DNA from: a virus
DNA length: 21,522 nucleotides
Virus record (IMG/VR): IMGVR_UViG_3300046680_000707
Span: 1 to 21,522 of that record
Direction: 5' to 3' (one strand)
The position numbers and the translations under genes were made by a program. Numbering within the stretch: the first letter of the stretch is position 1; the number at the start of each line of letters is the position of its first letter. The notes under the pieces are model-generated. The model was not told where the DNA came from, searched no databases, and worked only from the letters and a program-made list of their open reading frames with translations. Below, in pieces: positions 2,111 through 20,416 of this stretch.

Positions 2111-2946
2111 CAGGACGCCACGCTGGTCTTGTTCCGCAGGTAGCCGAATTCCTGCTCGAAGTACGCCAATTTGGCGGCCTCCGCGTCGGCAGCGGCGTCG
2201 GCTGCCGAGCGGGTGGGGCGTGTGTCGTTGCGGACCCGGTTCAGCCACTCGAGGTAGCGAGCGGTGGAGCACGTTTTGATCTTGTGGCGGCGCATCCAGT
2301 CGGCTTGCTTGAGGGCTTCGGCCTGGAGGTCGAGGCCCCCGTAGGTGTCGAGGGTTTTTCGCCACAACCCGGGATCGTGGGAGATGCCGAACGACTCGAG
2401 GACGACCGTCACCGCGTCGATGCGATCTTGCTCTTCGATTGAAAATTCTGCTGCCGTTGTCCCCTGGGGGTGCTGCGGCAGCAGCGGGGGTTTTACGTCT
2501 TCTACGTCTTCTTCTACGTCTACGTCTTTCGTCTTCGCGCGCTCAGCCCCGCGCGAGGGGCGTTCGAGTGTTGTTCCGTTGACGTTCGCGTGTTGTTCGT
2601 GAGTCGTTCGCGTGTTGTTCGTGAGTCGTTCAGGAGTGCTTCGCGTGTCGATCGCGTCATCTTCGGGAGACCAACGCTGCCAGTCTGGCCAGTCGTGCAG
2701 CCACACCCCGTCTGGCTGGTCGTCCAGCAGTCTGGCGGCGATCAACCGCTTGACTGAGGCCAGCGGACGGCGCACGACGGCGGCGGCGGTGGCGGCACTG
2801 TCGAAGTGACCGCGGACGCTCTGCTGGGCGCCAGCGTCGAGCAGCTCCACCCATGTTCGAAAGTCGGTATCGCTGAGGGTGGCGACCTTCTCATGTCGCG
2901 TAGCACCCACCCACACCTTGAACCACGGCAGACGTTTTGCTGGCAT
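2110..2946 (-). CDS. Phage replisome organiser / replication initiator (278 aa)
   Basis: The start MPAKRLPWFKVWVG, followed by a winged-helix-like stretch to about residue 95, resembles the N-terminal domain of phage replisome organisers that precede DnaC-type loaders. A low-complexity linker (about residues 100-160) is rich in Thr/Asn/Asp/Glu and includes DVDVEEDVEDVK. A second helical domain follows (about 165-255), with a WLNRVRNDTRP segment. It is followed directly by the helicase loader with a 1-bp overlap. The linker DNA contains a perfect 22-bp tandem repeat (2584-2631). The ATG at 2946 was chosen because it sits next to the preceding stop; the longer frame to 3045 would overlap that gene. 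Origin-binding activity is inferred from position and family resemblance. Confidence 0.7.
   Translation of the reverse strand: MPAKRLPWFKVWVGATRHEKVATLSDTDFRTWVELLDAGAQQSVRGHFDSAATAAAVVRRPLASVKRLIAARLLDDQPDGVWLHDWPDWQRWSPEDDAIDTRSTPERLTNNTRTTHEQHANVNGTTLERPSRGAERAKTKDVDVEEDVEDVKPPLLPQHPQGTTAAEFSIEEQDRIDAVTVVLESFGISHDPGLWRKTLDTYGGLDLQAEALKQADWMRRHKIKTCSTARYLEWLNRVRNDTRPTRSAADAAADAEAAKLAYFEQEFGYLRNKTSVAS
2584..2631. repeat. 22-bp tandem repeat, two copies plus 4 bp
   Basis: A 22-bp unit beginning GTTCGCGTGTTGTTC occurs at 2584-2605 and again without mismatch at 2606-2627, followed by the first four bases of a third copy. It lies in the linker of the replication initiator. Because 22 is not a multiple of three, the two copies are translated in different frames, as ERLTNNTR-like and TTHEQHAN-like peptides. 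Confidence 0.9.
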
Positions 2947-2947
2947 A

Positions 2948-3163
2948 TCAGGCTGCCACCACCCTCCCTTCGTTGAGATACGCGCGGGCTTTCGGCGTGA
3001 GCACGATGCCCCGCATATGCGCGATCCTCCCGCTCGCCTTCCCATGCTGCGAGCAGCACCCTTTGCACAATTTGCCGAGCTCGTCGAAGTGCTCGATGGA
3101 CTGCCACCGGTCGCAGCGGCGGCACCGGCGCAGAATGCCGATCTCCTGGTGCTCAGTCGTCAT
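2948..3163 (-). CDS. Small Cys-rich, zinc-finger-like protein (71 aa)
   Basis: The 71-aa protein has CRRC at residues 14-17 and CKGCC at 33-37, an arrangement typical of a four-cysteine zinc site. The C-terminal half is basic (TPKARAYLNEGRVV). A strong GGGAGG ribosome site lies 7-8 bases before the ATG at 3163. The gene overlaps the end of the annealing-protein gene by 11 bp and is separated from the replisome organiser by 1 bp. Small zinc proteins of this sort are common in phage replication operons. The function is unknown; nucleic-acid binding is plausible. The frame extends far upstream to 3601, but that part is the shadow of the annealing-protein gene. Confidence 0.65.
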   Translation of the reverse strand: MTTEHQEIGILRRCRRCDRWQSIEHFDELGKLCKGCCSQHGKASGRIAHMRGIVLTPKARAYLNEGRVVAA

Positions 3164-3632
3164 AGAGAAACCTCCCCACCCCCCACTGGACGGCGGCGCG
3201 TTTAAAGGCGTCGGAGTACGCCGCTTTGAATGGCTCCTCCTCGAGCTCCGGACGGCTCGGATTGTTGGGATACCCGACGTCGGACTTGTGCTGGCCGAAG
3301 ATGGTGACCGTGCATTCCACGACCTGTTTGGCGAAATCGAGCACCACGAACCGCGTCTCCCAGTTGCCTGGCCCGACCACGGCGTCGAGGCGATCGGCGA
3401 CCTGGCGAGCGGTGACGTAGTCGAACTTCTGGGTGCCGCGGCCTGGTCGCTGCTTGACGTCCATGACCCGGCGCAACTGCTCGCCGATCTTGCGCCAGCC
3501 CGCCGCGGTGGGCCGCCCATCGGGAGTGATGAGCAACTCCTGTGGGCTGGGCGCCTGCTCGCGCTGGAATTCAGCCCTTGCCGCCGCGTCTGCCTCAGCA
3601 TCTGCCTGTCGTATCTGAACCGCCGTGCTCAT
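3153..3632 (-). CDS. Rad52/DdrA-like single-strand annealing protein (159 aa)
   Basis: The core resembles the Rad52/Rad22/DdrA annealing domain: YVTARQVADRLDAVVGPGNW (72-91), a beta strand VECTVTIFG (105-113), the conserved SDVG turn and the C-terminal AYSDAFKRAAVQWGVGRFLY (139-158). Proteins of this family coat single-stranded DNA and anneal complementary strands, serving phage recombination or end repair. The length fits a minimal phage version without a long tail. The ATG at 3632 is preceded by GGGGGTG; a GTG two codons earlier is less likely. It is the first gene of the leftward replication operon. A TAGAAT hexamer at 3657-3652 could be its -10 element, but no convincing -35 was found. 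Confidence 0.85.
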   Translation of the reverse strand: MSTAVQIRQADAEADAAARAEFQREQAPSPQELLITPDGRPTAAGWRKIGEQLRRVMDVKQRPGRGTQKFDYVTARQVADRLDAVVGPGNWETRFVVLDFAKQVVECTVTIFGQHKSDVGYPNNPSRPELEEEPFKAAYSDAFKRAAVQWGVGRFLYDD

Positions 3633-3673
3633 TCGCACCCCCTACATCCCGATTCTACCATACTCTTCGCAAC

Positions 3674-3690
3674 ACGACGCGACACGTCGT
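3674..3690. promoter_or_regulatory. Inverted repeat, putative operator between divergent genes
   Basis: ACGACG (3674-3679) and CGTCGT (3685-3690) form a perfect 6-bp inverted repeat with a 5-bp spacer. It lies between the leftward replication operon (start 3632) and the rightward HTH gene (start 3716), overlapping the expected -35 region of the latter. It is a candidate binding site for the HTH protein or another phage regulator. Confidence 0.4.
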
Positions 3691-3716
3691 CGAGAGTTGT
3701 GCTATCCTTGGTACCG
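3679..3716 (+). promoter_or_regulatory. Promoter of HTH gene, probably leaderless mRNA
   Basis: TATCCT at 3703-3708 matches a -10 box and lies 7 bases before the GTG at 3716, so transcription would begin at or beside the start codon. GCGACA (3679-3684) gives a partial -35 with an 18-bp spacer. No ribosome-binding site precedes the GTG, which agrees with a leaderless message. Confidence 0.45.
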
Positions 3717-3922
3717 TGACGAGTGTGAGCGCAGAGCGATTCCTGACGGTCAGCCAGGTCGCAACCGAACTGCACCTGAGCATCGAGACCGTGCGCCGGT
3801 ATTTGCGCGCCGGTTCGCTGCACGGCGTCCAGATCAACCGCCAGGCCGGATGGCTCGTGTCCCGCGAAGAGCTGGACCGTTTCATCGCTGACCTGGAGGA
3901 CCGCGCGACCGACAATCCCTAG
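3716..3922 (+). CDS. MerR/excisionase-type HTH DNA-binding protein (68 aa)
   Basis: The protein is a compact HTH_17/excisionase-family domain: FLTVSQVATELHLSIETVRR (residues 9-28) forms the first helices and recognition helix. The wing RAGSLHGVQINRQAGWLVSR and a final helix EELDRFIADLED follow. Such proteins act as phage excisionases or small transcription regulators. The GTG start at 3716 was chosen because the family begins a few residues before the HTH and because a -10 box sits 7 bases upstream. Longer frames run through promoter DNA. The gene is divergent from the annealing-protein operon and converges on the early operon, ending 2 bp before its last stop. Excisionase or regulator cannot be told apart here. 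Confidence 0.75.
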   Translation: MTSVSAERFLTVSQVATELHLSIETVRRYLRAGSLHGVQINRQAGWLVSREELDRFIADLEDRATDNP

Positions 3923-3924
3923 CC

Positions 3925-4098
3925 TCACCCCGGCGTCACCTCCGCTGGTTCCGGTTCTCTCAAGGCGAGCAGCACCACCGTTTTCCGGTCCTCCAGAAGG
4001 TGCAGCCCGAGATGCTGATGAAAATGTCTGGGGTCCTGGGCCAGCCGGTCTGCCACCCGTTGCATCTCGTCAGCGAAGTCTTCTAAGTAGTTACTCAT
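3925..4098 (-). CDS. Small hypothetical protein (57 aa)
   Basis: ATG at 4098 overlaps the preceding stop as ATGA, giving a 57-aa protein. It begins MSNYLEDFADEMQRVADRLA, has a His-rich centre (HFHQHLGLHLLED) and ends in an acidic/proline tail. It looks helical and soluble. It is the last gene of the eleven-gene early operon and converges on the HTH gene. I do not recognise a family. Confidence 0.6.
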   Translation of the reverse strand: MSNYLEDFADEMQRVADRLAQDPRHFHQHLGLHLLEDRKTVVLLALREPEPAEVTPG

Positions 4099-4495: not shown

Positions 4496-4875
4496 GTACA
4501 GCCTCCGACGGTCCACTGGCGGCGTCTGCCCATCTGGAGGTCGTGTGCCGCTACCAGACGTGCCTGCCAGGGCACCCACAAACTCCACTCGGGGTGTCCC
4601 ATTTCCAGTGCTCCGCGGCGGAACGTGGACGGGAAGTACTGAAGTACGCCCCCCGCCCCGCTGCCGCCGCGGTTCCACACGTTGGCGCCGCCGCTCTCCT
4701 TGGCTTCTATGCACGCCACGCGCGGATCAACCACCGGCTCGACGACAGCTTCGACGACCTGGTCCTGGGCATCGTCCACGACCACCGGCGTGGGATCGTC
4801 GCCTACGTCTCGCGCGTGGGCCGTGTGGGTGGTCAGCACCAGGACTGCCGCCGATACCAGCGCCGCCACTCTCAC
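4492..4875 (-). CDS. Secreted Rpf/transglycosylase-like cell-wall protein (127 aa)
   Basis: The N-terminus (VRVAALVSAAVLVLTTHTAHA, about 21 residues) has a signal peptide with an AxA-type cleavage site. A Val/Asp/Glu linker (22-52) leads to a small lysozyme-like domain at about 54-127. In it, CIEAKESGG has Glu in the catalytic position of resuscitation-promoting-factor and transglycosylase-like domains, GVLQYFPSTF matches the G-x-x-Q-F/Y-x-x-x-TW-type segment, and the protein ends in a second Cys, likely to pair with the first. Such domains cleave peptidoglycan. Unusually it is encoded in the early operon, between RusA and a membrane protein, not with the late lysis genes. The GTG start overlaps the RusA stop (GTGA). 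Confidence 0.7.
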   Translation of the reverse strand: MRVAALVSAAVLVLTTHTAHARDVGDDPTPVVVDDAQDQVVEAVVEPVVDPRVACIEAKESGGANVWNRGGSGAGGVLQYFPSTFRRGALEMGHPEWSLWVPWQARLVAAHDLQMGRRRQWTVGGCT

Positions 4876-5237
4876 GCGACGTCCTCGATCTCGATCATGG
4901 TCGACGTGTAGCCGCTGCACACGACGCCGCGAACCACGAGCTCCAGGTGCTCGGTGTCGTCGTCCGCGAGAATGCCGCCCCTGACCAGCCCATCCAGAAT
5001 GCCCTTGCAGCGAGCCGTGAGGTTGTCCACGTCGCGCCGCCGCTGCACCGGGAACGTCAGCGTGATGGTGACCTTCGCGCGGCCCCGCAGCGGGATGATG
5101 CCGGCCTCGCGCGCGCACACGGTGGTATGCACCTGGGCACCCCTGAGCTTGCGCTGATACGTGCTCCAGTGGCCTCTCTGGCCGTTCACCGTGGCCGCCG
5201 GCAACCAGCCGGCCATGACAAAGCCCTGCACGGTCAT
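4872..5237 (-). CDS. rusA: RusA-like Holliday-junction resolvase (121 aa)
   Basis: The diagnostic RusA segment is present: RRDVDNL (67-73), Lys78 and DGL (82-84), then ILADDDTEHLEL (89-100), which supply the acidic metal-binding residues. RusA dimers resolve four-way DNA junctions formed during phage recombination and replication. The length (121 aa) is normal for the family. The ATG at 5237 overlaps the stop of the 30-residue mini-gene as ATGA; upstream in-frame codons are shadows. With the Rad52-like protein and DnaC-like loader it completes a recombination/replication set, although it sits in a different operon from them. Confidence 0.88.
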   Translation of the reverse strand: MTVQGFVMAGWLPAATVNGQRGHWSTYQRKLRGAQVHTTVCAREAGIIPLRGRAKVTITLTFPVQRRRDVDNLTARCKGILDGLVRGGILADDDTEHLELVVRGVVCSGYTSTMIEIEDVA

Positions 5238-5326
5238 GGCTCGTCGAATGCCTCGAGCAACTCGAGCAAGGCCTTGACCTTGCCCTCGATGCGGTGGAGC
5301 TGCGGCACGATGTCGCCGAAGGTCAC
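5234..5326 (-). CDS. 30-aa mini-gene, duplicate of the tail of the 78-aa protein
   Basis: The GTG at 5326 overlaps the HNH stop (GTGA), and its stop overlaps the RusA start (ATGA). The 30 residues read TFGDIVPQLHRIE, then KVKALLELLEAF. This aligns with the C-terminus of the protein encoded at 5748-5984 (EFGDVIPQLHRIE, then RVQRLLVLLEAF). It is best read as the 3' end of the recipient gene left behind when the HNH element and a donor copy of the tail arrived. It may still be translated because it keeps the overlap chain intact. A function as a separate peptide is unproven. Confidence 0.6.
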   Translation of the reverse strand: MTFGDIVPQLHRIEGKVKALLELLEAFDEP

Positions 5327-5751
5327 GCCGCCCTCTTTCGATCACGCTGGCGTTTCATGGCTGCTAGCCAGCAAGTACGGCATTTCCGCTTGCCACTGAT
5401 CAGGTACGTGTTGGCGGCACTGAACTCATGCCCGCGCTTGCAGCGATCAATGGGAACGTTGTGTGGGATGCGCCTGACGATGTTTTCGACGTGCGTCACG
5501 GGCTCGAGGTGCGCAGGATTTACGCAGGCGCGGTTATGGCAGAGGTGATCCAGTTGCATCCCCGGCGGGATCGGCCCCACGAGCCACCGATATGCCACAC
5601 GATGCGCCGCCTCGTTACTCCCGCGGCCATCAGCGAAGCGACCGTATCCGCCGGGGGTGCGCCCGCCCTTCCAGAAGAAACAACCACCGGGGTTGATTTC
5701 CACCTTGGCCCAGAACGCAGCCTGTCGCTCCTCCACTGTCCACGCCGTCAC
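5323..5751 (-). CDS. HNH endonuclease, homing type (142 aa)
   Basis: An HNH_3-type nuclease: the FW-K-VE and GGCFFWKG start (13-30) is typical, followed by AAHRVAYRW (48-56) and LDHLCHNRACVNPAHLEPVT (67-86), which holds the catalytic His and the metal/structural Asn-His residues. C104, H108, C124 and C127 form a likely zinc site near the end. These enzymes make site-specific breaks that let their genes spread into related phages. It sits inside the early operon with GTGA overlaps at both ends and lies between two diverged copies of one gene tail (5748-5830 and 5234-5326). It is probably a free-standing homing endonuclease; no group I intron core was seen around it. Confidence 0.88.
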   Translation of the reverse strand: MTAWTVEERQAAFWAKVEINPGGCFFWKGGRTPGGYGRFADGRGSNEAAHRVAYRWLVGPIPPGMQLDHLCHNRACVNPAHLEPVTHVENIVRRIPHNVPIDRCKRGHEFSAANTYLISGKRKCRTCWLAAMKRQRDRKRAA

Positions 5752-10744: not shown

Positions 10745-11407
10745 TCACACGATCCAGATGCAGGACCAGCCGCCCAGGCGTTCGTAGTCGTAGCGACTGA
10801 GCTCGTTCCAGATGCCGCGATACCCTAATGCCGAATTCTGAATGGCAAGATTGTTGCCATGCACACCGACGAACGCGACCCAGTGGTAGTACTCCTGACC
10901 CGAACCCAGTCCAAACGTCTGGCTATACGTCGCGTACGCCTCGTCAAAACTCAGCCAGCCCTGACGGGTGGTCAGTCCCGCGTGCTCTGAGAGCACGCGC
11001 TGCAGCTGGGCGCCGCTGCCATCGTGGAGTCCCAGCGCCGGGCTGATGTTCTGCGGCAAACCGATCGCGTACGTGACCGCCTCGCGGTTGGCGTAGATGT
11101 CATCTGAGCGCGCTGCGCCACTCCCCCGTTCGACGTATTCCGTCGCACACGAGCTGCATGACCAATCATAAATTTGGGCGGGCATCGGCAAATACGGATT
11201 CCAGGCAGTAGCGGTTTCGACAACTTCAAAAGGGACGCTTTGAGTAGTGTTGTCGGCTTCGAGATAGAACCAAACGGCATCTCGACCGAATGTCTGACTA
11301 ATGTTGTTGCCCTCGCGGAGGACGATGTATCGCTCGTCGGATCTCGGCTCATCGCCAGCGTCGGTCATTGACTGAAGTACGCCGGGCCCGACCACAAACT
11401 GCGTCAT
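10745..11407 (-). CDS. C39-like cysteine peptidase, probable endolysin (220 aa)
   Basis: Residues 1-56 form an N-terminal module (QFVVGPGV, DEPRSDERYIVLREG, SQTFG) that is also encoded alone at 11994-12179. Residues about 70-220 look like a papain-like C39 peptidase: DWSCSSCATEYV (81-92) provides the nucleophile (Cys84 or Cys87), HWVAFVGVHGNNLAIQN (175-191) the His and Asn/Gln partners, and GGWSCIWIV the final strand. Such enzymes serve as phage lysins that cut peptidoglycan peptides. It is followed by two tiny membrane proteins, forming a plausible lysis cassette. It is cut off from the late operon by an opposite-strand HNH gene. ATG at 11407 was chosen by alignment with the duplicate module. 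Confidence 0.7.
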   Translation of the reverse strand: MTQFVVGPGVLQSMTDAGDEPRSDERYIVLREGNNISQTFGRDAVWFYLEADNTTQSVPFEVVETATAWNPYLPMPAQIYDWSCSSCATEYVERGSGAARSDDIYANREAVTYAIGLPQNISPALGLHDGSGAQLQRVLSEHAGLTTRQGWLSFDEAYATYSQTFGLGSGQEYYHWVAFVGVHGNNLAIQNSALGYRGIWNELSRYDYERLGGWSCIWIV

Positions 11408-11475
11408 GGCGGACACACACTTTGATCGTAAAGATAGAAGACCTCGACCCTGCCGATTGGCTCCGGTTTGTTCGA

Positions 11476-12003
11476 ATGGCTGAATTGATGACCCTCACTA
11501 CCGGGGCCATGCTCAAGGAGATTGCCAGGGGATATAGCTCCACCCGAAGAGCCGAACTTCGATTCTGGTTCAGCGTCGACTTTAGTGAGGAGTGTTGGAT
11601 CTGGCAGGGCACCAGAAACCGGAATGGTTATGGACACTTCAACCACAGCGGACCGATGGGTGTTCTTGCCCATCGGATCGCTTGGACCTACACACGAGGC
11701 TCTCCCGGCGTGTTGCATGTGCTTCACACGTGCGACACCCCAGCGTGCGTACGACCCAATCACTTGTATCTCGGTACACACACGGAGAATATGCAAGACA
11801 AGGTTAGGAAGGGACGGCAGTTCGCTGCATCTCGGCAAGGCTCAGCAAACAAGATCTCAAAACTCCATGAGGCGGATGTCATTCTCATGCGGGCGCGTTG
11901 GGAATCGGGCGCACACACCATGACTTCATTGGCAGCCTCGTACGGCGTTAGCATCAAAACAGTCAGTCAGATTGTCCGCCGCAAAGCCTGGATTCACGTG
12001 TAA
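11476..12003 (+). CDS. HNH homing-type endonuclease with C-terminal HTH (about 175 aa)
   Basis: An HNH_3 nuclease domain: ECWIWQGTRNRNGYGHF (39-55), LAHRIAWTYTRG (64-75) and LHVLHTCDTPACVRPNHLYL (80-99), with the catalytic His and Asn-His. A NUMOD-like KISKL-HEADVILMRA segment and a helix-turn-helix (SLAASYGVSIKTVSQIVRRK, 151-170) at the end should supply target recognition. It is the only plus-strand gene within the late region, and its bases look less GC-rich than its neighbours, which suggests transfer. Its end overlaps the antisense end of the truncated module gene by 10 bp. The start is uncertain: ATG at 11476, 11488 or 11509, none with a good ribosome site. Confidence 0.82.
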   Translation: MAELMTLTTGAMLKEIARGYSSTRRAELRFWFSVDFSEECWIWQGTRNRNGYGHFNHSGPMGVLAHRIAWTYTRGSPGVLHVLHTCDTPACVRPNHLYLGTHTENMQDKVRKGRQFAASRQGSANKISKLHEADVILMRARWESGAHTMTSLAASYGVSIKTVSQIVRRKAWIHV

Positions 12004-12179
12004 CTGGCTCGTTTCACAACGTTCTCGGCTTCGTACCACCAATAGATGCCGAGCGATCCGAACGTCTGCGACACCTTGTCGCCTTCTCGGAGAATCACGA
12101 ATTGTTCATCGCTGCGAGCAGTATCTCCGGCGGCGGCAATGGCCTCTGCCACACCCGGCCCTATCGAAAATTCGGTCAT
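11994..12179 (-). CDS. Truncated endolysin-type N-terminal module (61 aa)
   Basis: ATG at 12179 overlaps the upstream stop (ATGA). The protein (EFSIGPGV, ARSDEQFVILREG, SQTFG, YEAEN) matches the first ~55 residues of the C39-like endolysin at roughly 45% identity by eye. It then ends 8 residues later, where the endolysin continues into its linker and peptidase domain. The opposite-strand HNH gene begins exactly at this end. I read it as the remnant of an older endolysin-type gene cut by HNH insertion, though a stand-alone virion or lysin accessory module is possible. Confidence 0.65.
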   Translation of the reverse strand: MTEFSIGPGVAEAIAAAGDTARSDEQFVILREGDKVSQTFGSLGIYWWYEAENVVKRASYT

Positions 12180-18794: not shown

Positions 18795-20416
18795 TTACGC
18801 GGCTCCCTTTGCCCAGACACCAAAGGTCGGCCGCATCATCTGGTGACCGTAGATCTCTTCGACCGCGAGCTTCCAGGTGAAGACGTCGATGTCGTAGAAG
18901 ATGTGCGACTTGGGCGTGCGCTGCATCACCAGCGCGATGGCTTCCCGATGGCCGATGAAATTGTTGGCCTGGCCGCCAGCCGGCTTGACTAAATTGGTGG
19001 TCACCCCCAGGTTCAGGCCGTACATGTCGCCGAGCTGGCCGTCCTTCGACGGCAGGTTCGTGTTGCCGATGTACAAGGCATTGCTCCACCGGTCCAGTGC
19101 CAGCTTGGCCACCTTCTCTGCCGGGCTCATCAAGAAGAATCTTTCCGTTTGCGGCGCGTCGGCGTTATCGAGAAGCTGCACCGCAGCCAGGACGTTGGCG
19201 TCGGACAATGCCGTGCCGAGCGTGCCCACGGTCTGGGTGAAGCCCGCGACGTCCACGGCCAGGTTGGTGTCGACGTCCTTGGCCAGGGCGTAGCCCAGTT
19301 TCTGCTGGTATTCGGATTGGACATCGATGATGCTCTGCACCTTCACAATGTCCTCAATTCCCAATGCCGCATACGACCAAATGTTGCACTGACCCGGCCC
19401 TTTCGGACCGGAGTGGACTATCTCATCATCGCGTTCCTGCGAACGCGAGCGGGGCGCTAGTGCTGGCTTATTGTTGGGACTCACCAGCTAGTCTCTGAAC
19501 CTTCCAGGCTACGCAGCGTTAGGCTGCCCCGGCCTGGCTTGGCTGCGGATTCCCATGCATCGGGTGACGGCGTAGAAACAACGCGATTTCTCTCTGCTCG
19601 TCGGTGTAGTGCAGGTGCGAGTCGCGCGACTGCGCGATTTCGATGAAGCGCCAGAGCGCATCTGCCTGTGCTCGCTTGGTCACGAGATACGGCATAAGCA
19701 CTTCGAGCAGGACGCGCGCAGCGACGAAGCTCATCACCGAAATATGACGTTGCGGCCGCCTGCCCATCCTGCTCGGTTGGACGACTTTCGGGTCTGCCCG
19801 AAGGTAGTGCTTCGCACCGATTTGCACTAGCAGGTCGTCCACATGAGCGCACGTCGGCATGTCCGTGTGCGAGAGCGCAAGCAACGGACGGTAGCGCTCG
19901 GGCTCCCGCTCGTGGTTGGGCAGTCGCCGTGTGTTCGGTCCGTCTGGCTTCCACGTCCACCTGCTGCGATAGAGAGAGATTGTTCCTTCGCCGTCCCAAA
20001 AGCCAGCGAGCCACGCGGCATCTGTTGGTTGCATAACCTTGAATATGCTGCATGTTCGTTGTCATCTGGTTGATGTGTAGGGTTCCCGACAGTTCACCCC
20101 GTGTTTTCACTCTCGCCTAAGCGGCGAGGCGTGCCCCCAGAACTTTTCGGTCGAGGGTAATGGTCGTGGCCGTCTCAGCCACCGTCTCGTACACGATGGC
20201 CGTGTTCTCGGTCTTCGCCCGCGCGGCCAGGTTTCCGATGCTTGCGACCTTGACCGTCTTGCCGACGCTCGCATCGTTCTCAAAGCCCCTATTGACGCTC
20301 TTGGCGAACAATAGATTGGACTCTGTTGCGCGTAATACCTGCTTCGACCAAATGTCAGGCGAGAAAACGCCATCGGAAATGGTCTTATCTACAAATTCGG
20401 TCGCGCCTGTAGCCAT
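18795..20416 (-). CDS. Major capsid protein, split by a group I intron (join of two exons, 284 aa)
   Basis: Exon 1 is 20416-20141 (92 codons) and exon 2 is 19373-18795 (192 codons plus stop). Exon 1 carries FSPDIWSKQVLRATESNLLF, VGKTVKVASIG and TATTITLDRKV. Exon 2 continues YAALGIEDIVKVQSIIDVQS and LGYALAKDVDTNLA. The joined TITLDRKV-YAALGIEDI aligns without a gap to the usual capsid pattern (TLT-x-D-x-x-K-Y-x-A-F-x-x-DD), so the splice point is well supported by protein logic. The product should be an HK97-fold coat protein. Without splicing, exon 1 would stop at 20117 after seven extra residues. ATG at 20416 has AAGGGGG upstream. It follows the scaffold gene. Confidence 0.82.
19374..20140 (-). 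ncRNA. Group I self-splicing intron in the capsid gene (about 767 nt)
   Basis: On the minus strand the conserved core is visible. An R-type element GTTCAGAGACTA (19500-19489) and an S-type element AGATAGTCC (19423-19415) contain the P7 strands GACTA and TAGTC. Between them lies a perfect P8 hairpin CGCGTTC-gcag-GAACGCG (19447-19430). P9 follows as CCGG-t-CC-gaaa-GG-g-CCGG (19411-19394). A P-type segment GTGAACTGTCGGGAA lies near the 5' end (about 20099-20085) and a CTCGCC/GGCGAG stem, probably P2, precedes it. The intron ends in G and exon 1 ends in U, as the class requires. I could not draw a convincing P1, so the exact 5' site rests on the protein alignment. Confidence 0.82.
19519..20034 (-). 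CDS. LAGLIDADG homing endonuclease inside the intron (171 aa)
   Basis: The motif WLAGFWDGEGTISL (residues 8-21) is a clear LAGLIDADG signature with the acidic catalytic residue. A single motif means the enzyme probably works as a homodimer. The typical end of the family fold is present (FVAARVLLEVLMPYLVTKRA, ALWRFIEIAQ). It would cut intronless capsid genes and so spread the intron. The ORF lies between the 5' core segment and the R element, ending with TAA 19 bases before the R element. ATG at 20034 has AAGG only 3 bases away, suggesting weak translation. Confidence 0.9.
   Translation of the reverse strand: MQPTDAAWLAGFWDGEGTISLYRSRWTWKPDGPNTRRLPNHEREPERYRPLLALSHTDMPTCAHVDDLLVQIGAKHYLRADPKVVQPSRMGRRPQRHISVMSFVAARVLLEVLMPYLVTKRAQADALWRFIEIAQSRDSHLHYTDEQREIALFLRRHPMHGNPQPSQAGAA

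Follow-up and report, generated by a model that had tools for sequence, protein, structure and literature searches.

A viral fragment of 21,522 bases (IMG/VR record IMGVR_UViG_3300046680_000707; this whole stretch is called the window below), with a G+C content of about 58–67%, carries its major capsid gene on the minus strand between positions 20416 and 18795, and codon 88 of this gene is split by an insert of 767 nucleotides (nt). The capsid frame starts at 20416 and runs into a premature stop at 20117, and the remaining protein is encoded by positions 19386-18795. The joined halves comprise 284 residues and matched the capsid families Pfam PF19821 (Phage_capsid_2, 6e-8) and phrog_267 of PHROG ('major head protein', 4e-30), which agreed with the initial annotation of this DNA as a capsid gene in two parts. 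The elements listed in that annotation, namely two capsid halves with 767 nt between them, a LAGLIDADG open reading frame (ORF), the R and S core elements and the P7, P8 and P9 pairings, were all found (Table 1). The evidence from the ribozyme core, from the homologues and from the nuclease pointed in the same direction and supported that the insert is a group I intron that carries its own LAGLIDADG gene inside the major capsid gene.

The borders of the insert were located by comparison with uninterrupted homologues. Viral contigs were searched with the joined protein, and the 80 loci that were kept were all uninterrupted, none of these homologous capsids containing the intervening residues that would have spoken for an unspliced protein. 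The best homologue showed 100% protein identity to the spliced capsid over residues 1-284. All 80 homologues read L-N-[I/L]-W-[S/D/T]-Y at the junction, and when intron-less DNA was compared with the window by BLAST, the homology on the 5′ side ended at about 20156-20150 and in most loci resumed at 19386/19385. Thus, the insert extends from 20153 to 19387, with borders at 20154/20153 and 19387/19386. The exon then ends in ...ATTACCCT and restarts with CAACATTTGG, giving TITL-NIWSY. With the corrected borders, the last base is U in the 5′ exon and G in the intron, which is what group I splicing requires, and the terminal G was present in every intron copy whose end was read.

The initial annotation had joined GTT (20141) to TAT (19373), that is, it assumed the same intron with splice sites at 20141/20140 and 19374/19373. 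These borders were 13 nt off, and the true insert is equally long (767 nt) and lies nearer the 5′ end of the gene. The earlier join gives LDRKVYAA, and LDRKVY was seen in 0 of the 80 uninterrupted homologues, all of which instead had the LN[IL]W[SDT]Y motif. Furthermore, the window is homologous to intron-less DNA from 19386 onward, sequence inspection of the earlier exon end revealed no U.G P1 pairing, and the P9 helix (19411-19394) stands directly before the corrected 3′ site (19387/19386). We consider the earlier splice sites very improbable and rejected them, as they were contradicted by the 80 uninterrupted homologues.

Table 1. Exons, intron, ribozyme elements and endonuclease gene at the capsid locus of the window.
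Feature	Positions	Strand	Basis
5′ exon, capsid codons 1-87 plus bases 1 and 2 of codon 88, ending in ...ATTACCCT	20154-20416	minus	tblastn/blastn against 80 uninterrupted homologues; conserved ...CCCT at the border
Group I intron, 767 nt, CGACC...GTCAGTG, last base omega-G	19387-20153	minus	homologue comparison, alignment, structure
3′ exon of the capsid gene, starting with CAACATTTGGTCG	18795-19386	minus	blastn of uninterrupted homologues resumes at 19386/19385; Pfam/PHROG on the joined protein
P1, exon CCCU (20157-20154) with guide GGGG (20138-20135), U.G at the 5′ splice site	20135-20157	minus	invariant in 11 of 11 intron copies
P2 hairpin	20108-20133	minus	alignment structure
P3 5′ strand CGGGGU, partner 19450-19455	20096-20101	minus	5 copies differ from the other 6 by a G-C/C-G swap
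P4 5′ strand, P element CUG-U-CGG, partner 19543-19548	20086-20092	minus	alignment structure, RNAalifold
P5/P5a 5′ strands, partner 19552-19561; endonuclease ORF fills the loop	20072-20082	minus	alignment structure, RNAalifold
LAGLIDADG homing endonuclease ORF, 171 residues, single motif LAGFWDGEG, I-CreI/I-MsoI type	19519-20034	minus	motif, profile, fold; phrog_5046 1.5e-14
Q element, P4 3′ strand, P6, P6a, P6b	19500-19548	minus	two-sided changes: three in P6a, two in P6b
R element GGUUCAGAGACUA with P7 5′ strand GACUA (19493-19489)	19489-19501	minus	Rfam RF00028 consensus alignment; invariant
Extra hairpin between P7 and P3, P7.1-like	19462-19488	minus	5 base pairs, one two-sided change
P3 3′ strand GCCCCG	19450-19455	minus	alignment structure
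P8 hairpin	19430-19447	minus	two-sided changes in 6 of 7 pairs
S element with P7 3′ strand UAGUC (19420-19416)	19416-19423	minus	Rfam RF00028 alignment, structure
P9 hairpin, GAAA loop	19394-19411	minus	two-sided changes in 5 of 7 pairs

A secondary structure from P1 to P9, including the P3/P7 pseudoknot, was written out on an alignment of 11 distinct intron copies. In this 69-pair structure, 98.2% of the helix cells were paired, compared to 31–42% when the partners were slid by 1–3 columns. Two-sided compensatory changes were found in 19 of the 69 pairs, compared to 0–8 with slid partners, and the covarying helices were P3, P6a, P6b, P7.1, P8 and P9. When RNAalifold was run unaided, the same helices were recovered with the exception of P6 and P7. 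The exon strand of P1 could be followed outside the intron as well: all 11 alleles with the intron had CCCT, as did 9 of the 62 distinct alleles without it (Fisher p 5e-8, with relatedness ignored), an excess that is predicted if this strand pairs with the GGGG guide. The window intron has the P, Q, R and S elements of the Rfam group I model (RF00028, Intron_gpI), and its P1–P9 follow in the same order as in that model. The hairpin between P7 and P3 suggests that it belongs to subgroup IA.

The endonuclease ORF runs in the sense direction inside the P5 loop and extends with its final codons into the P5, P4 and P6 strands of the ribozyme. The LAGLIDADG motif with its catalytic acidic residue is present, and residues A7-F12 and D14-G17, in the LAGFWDGEG motif region, were invariant among the copies compared, and the start codon was either ATG or GTG. 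Among PDB entries, the endonuclease profile matched I-MsoI and I-CvuI. The predicted fold (mean predicted local distance difference test score, pLDDT, of 76 and predicted template modelling score, pTM, of 0.73) was matched by Foldseek to I-MsoI, I-CvuI and I-CreI. These three enzymes are homing endonucleases of group I introns in organellar rRNA genes. Like them, the window enzyme has one LAGLIDADG motif and a length in the range of about 160–170 residues, and comparison of the models indicated the same fold (template modelling scores of about 0.53–0.68, best Foldseek E about 3e-7). In contrast, the sequence identity is only about 20%, and the window enzyme resides in a phage capsid gene. Pfam LAGLIDADG_3 matched 10 of the 11 members at E up to 1, with a best value of 7.7e-6, and the window's own copy gave an E of 0.025, below the curated cut-off. 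The ORF was intact in 11 of 11 copies compared, and the median ratio of nonsynonymous to synonymous substitution rates (dN/dS) was 0.14; by this computation, the endonuclease is under purifying selection. The family PHROG 5046 is named 'HNH endonuclease', and this label looks wrong, as both profile and fold identify the member in the window as a LAGLIDADG enzyme.

The intron was not confined to the window. With the endonuclease as query, 13 further contigs were found, and the endonuclease profile added one more (L095). In all 14, the capsid gene had a homologous insert at the position seen in the window, although L094 held the 3′ end of the insert only. One contig, L082, showed no difference from the window across the compared 2.3 kb and may come from the same population. 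The inserts were 767–777 nt long, mostly not multiples of three, and both exons remained in frame where they were read. On the capsid tree, 8 changes are required to account for where the intron is present, and well-supported branches force at least 6 of these. For the 11 copies, approximately unbiased tests showed the intron tree and the capsid tree to be mutually incompatible (p = 0.001 and 6e-5). This scattered presence and the conflicting trees fit homing. On a codon alignment of the capsid gene, dN/dS was 0.144 among intron-plus alleles and 0.143 between intron-plus and intron-less alleles, and the spliced product thus appears to be under normal selection.

We conclude that the insert is very likely a mobile group I intron located in codon 88 of the major capsid gene, which would be spliced out of the RNA and spread by means of its endonuclease. 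This is supported by the borders, the covarying ribozyme core, the family and fold of the nuclease, the purifying selection and the scattered, tree-incongruent distribution. In the proposed mechanism, the transcript would fold into the P1–P9 core, and an external guanosine would attack behind the U of ...ACCCU. The released exon U would then attack behind the terminal G (19387), and ligation of the exons would give a 284-codon message with the conserved TITL-NIWSYAA. The 171-residue endonuclease with its single LAGLIDADG motif would act as a homodimer and, during co-infection, cut intron-less capsid genes at the junction, after which repair would copy the intron in. We infer that splicing occurs in the cell, that the DNA is cleaved at this site and that production of virions depends on splicing.

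Several observations weigh against this interpretation. The match to the Rfam group I model that the initial annotation had anticipated was obtained at 19656-19394, with 19.6 bits and therefore below the gathering score of 50, and the relatives of the intron also stayed under 50 against RF00028 (25.7–34.1 bits). The pairs in P1, P4, P5, P6 and P7 were invariant and provide no covariation evidence of their own, so these helices are supported by conservation and by the P, Q, R and S consensus instead. In addition, recombination of the capsid gene without homing could also produce the conflict between the trees. As for the Rfam score, the gathering score is a search threshold and no biological requirement, and the ORF of about 500 nt within P5 together with sequence divergence probably holds the score below it. 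The experimentally verified capsid intron of mycobacteriophage LittleE scored 30.7 bits against RF00028, likewise below the gathering cut-off, and thus the sub-threshold score is not evidence against an intron. A covariance model built from the window intron (R1) also picked up group I introns of other phages that reach the Rfam gathering level, in contigs L098, L099, L100 and L105, with E values from 1e-14 to 1e-22. In L105, three gathering-level group I matches lie within 2 kb (219-498, 1576-1835 and 1908-2124) and adjoin a distant relative of the window endonuclease.

An endonuclease located inside a conserved gene would also be expected of an intein or of another in-frame insertion that is either removed from the protein or retained in it. 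This explanation is extremely unlikely here. The frame of the 5′ exon hits the stop at 20117 within the insert, the endonuclease ORF has start and stop codons of its own, and the RNA covariation is strong. Since the insert lengths of 767–777 nt are mostly not multiples of three while both exons stay open, the insert is not in frame with both exteins, and an intein was rejected. The window is a metagenome-derived fragment, and the split gene could accordingly be viewed as a capsid gene that is broken and undergoes no functional splicing, be it through a decayed insertion or as a chimera of the assembly. We give this view very little chance, as the same insert was found at the same site in 14 further contigs with intact exons where they were read, the capsid dN/dS was 0.144 for intron-plus alleles and 0.143 for the comparison of intron-plus with intron-less alleles, and the nuclease ORF was intact in all copies compared. 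The recurrent copies and the selection led us to reject a pseudogene or chimera.

The closest precedent for the window intron is the one in LittleE (Omegavirus, JF937101), a temperate phage of a high-GC host, in which the major capsid gene contains an intron of about 820 nt, probably of group I, that carries a LAGLIDADG ORF and whose splicing was shown by reverse transcription PCR and N-terminal protein sequencing (PMC3706429). A capsid-gene intron in the lactococcal phage Tuc2009 is cited in the same paper (PMC3706429). The window intron is thus a further case of a known type, and the rarity that the initial annotation had ascribed to capsid-gene introns in temperate phages of GC-rich hosts was overstated. 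In LittleE, exon 1 also ends in U, the intron ends in G and the RF00028 score is below the gathering threshold. In contrast to the window ORF, which is in sense direction in the P5 loop, the ORF in LittleE is antisense to the capsid gene. The capsid of LittleE is HK97-related and belongs to a different family from phrog_267 of the window, so the insertion sites are not comparable. The two nucleases align over the motif region only (21 residues), and the LittleE intron was not detected by R1.

Among named phages, the nearest by capsid were cyanophages (e.g. Pf-WMP4 and A-4L) and one pelagiphage, with 25–32% identity. The named phage genomes gave no DNA match to the window, no match to the nuclease and only remote matches to the capsid. 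GTDB species genomes searched with the capsid protein and a capsid profile contained no relative, and no report on this phage group was found in the literature. For the temperate lifestyle that had been proposed, the window offers two genes, an integrase (PF00589, 7e-26) and a repressor-like gene assigned by PHROG, and these suggest a phage that may be temperate. The capsid sequence is nearest to lytic-type cyanophages, yet the same window has the integrase and the repressor-like gene.

A different insert was seen in the capsid gene of nine relatives that lack the window's intron (L010-L016, L021 and L037). In L010, it occupies 3247-4012 (766 nt) and directly follows ATG GCA ACC GGT GCT, i.e. 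capsid codon 5; in L037, it occupies 1955-2719; and in L011, L012 and L021, the 3′ end of the insert alone was present in the fetched DNA. Joining the exons of L010 restores M-A-T-G-A-T-E-F-V-D. The L010 insert ends in G, and a perfect P1 of 6 base pairs (GGUGCU/GGCACC) with a terminal U.G, as well as P3 (CGCAGC/GCUGCG), P4, P5, P8 and P9, could be drawn by hand. Its LAGLIDADG ORF has 206 residues and is 22% identical to the window's endonuclease. Rfam found nothing in the codon-5 insert up to E = 1. The codon-5 insert appears to be a different group I-like intron, and gene callers would lose the start of the capsid there. Other relatives have an antisense LAGLIDADG ORF just 3′ of the capsid gene (L002 at about 997-1480, L039 at about 2278-3000, and L072 and L074 after about 4835). 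In L002 and L072, this ORF is followed by an apparent second copy of the last codons of the capsid (WAKGAA-stop in the window). In L035, an antisense HNH-like endonuclease ORF is found at about 4855-5490, where it separates the capsid gene from the following one.

Within this one clade of uncultivated phages, at least two different group I introns, one located after codon 5 and the other in codon 88 and both with a LAGLIDADG gene of their own, have probably entered the capsid gene independently, and free-standing LAGLIDADG and HNH genes have probably settled at its 3′ side. If so, the capsid gene would be a persistent target for homing elements that compete with each other and that perhaps serve in the rivalry between co-infecting phages, and it is mostly as a repeated target of such elements that the capsid gene is of interest. 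In this high-GC phage clade, the codon-88 intron and its LAGLIDADG gene are distributed among the copies of a major structural gene. With standard gene callers, the site would appear as two broken genes, and the Rfam default threshold misses the intron; the corrected splice sites allow the capsid gene to be annotated correctly. The intron-plus and intron-minus alleles, together with a second intron elsewhere, form a natural set for asking whether the nucleases serve as weapons between co-infecting phages.

Elsewhere in the window, two HNH_3 endonuclease ORFs were found at 5323-5751 on the minus strand and at 11368-12003 on the plus strand (Pfam 4.7e-13 and 1.2e-9, respectively). The latter adjoins a short minus-strand ORF (11994-12179) that resembles the N-terminus of the ORF at 10745-11416.
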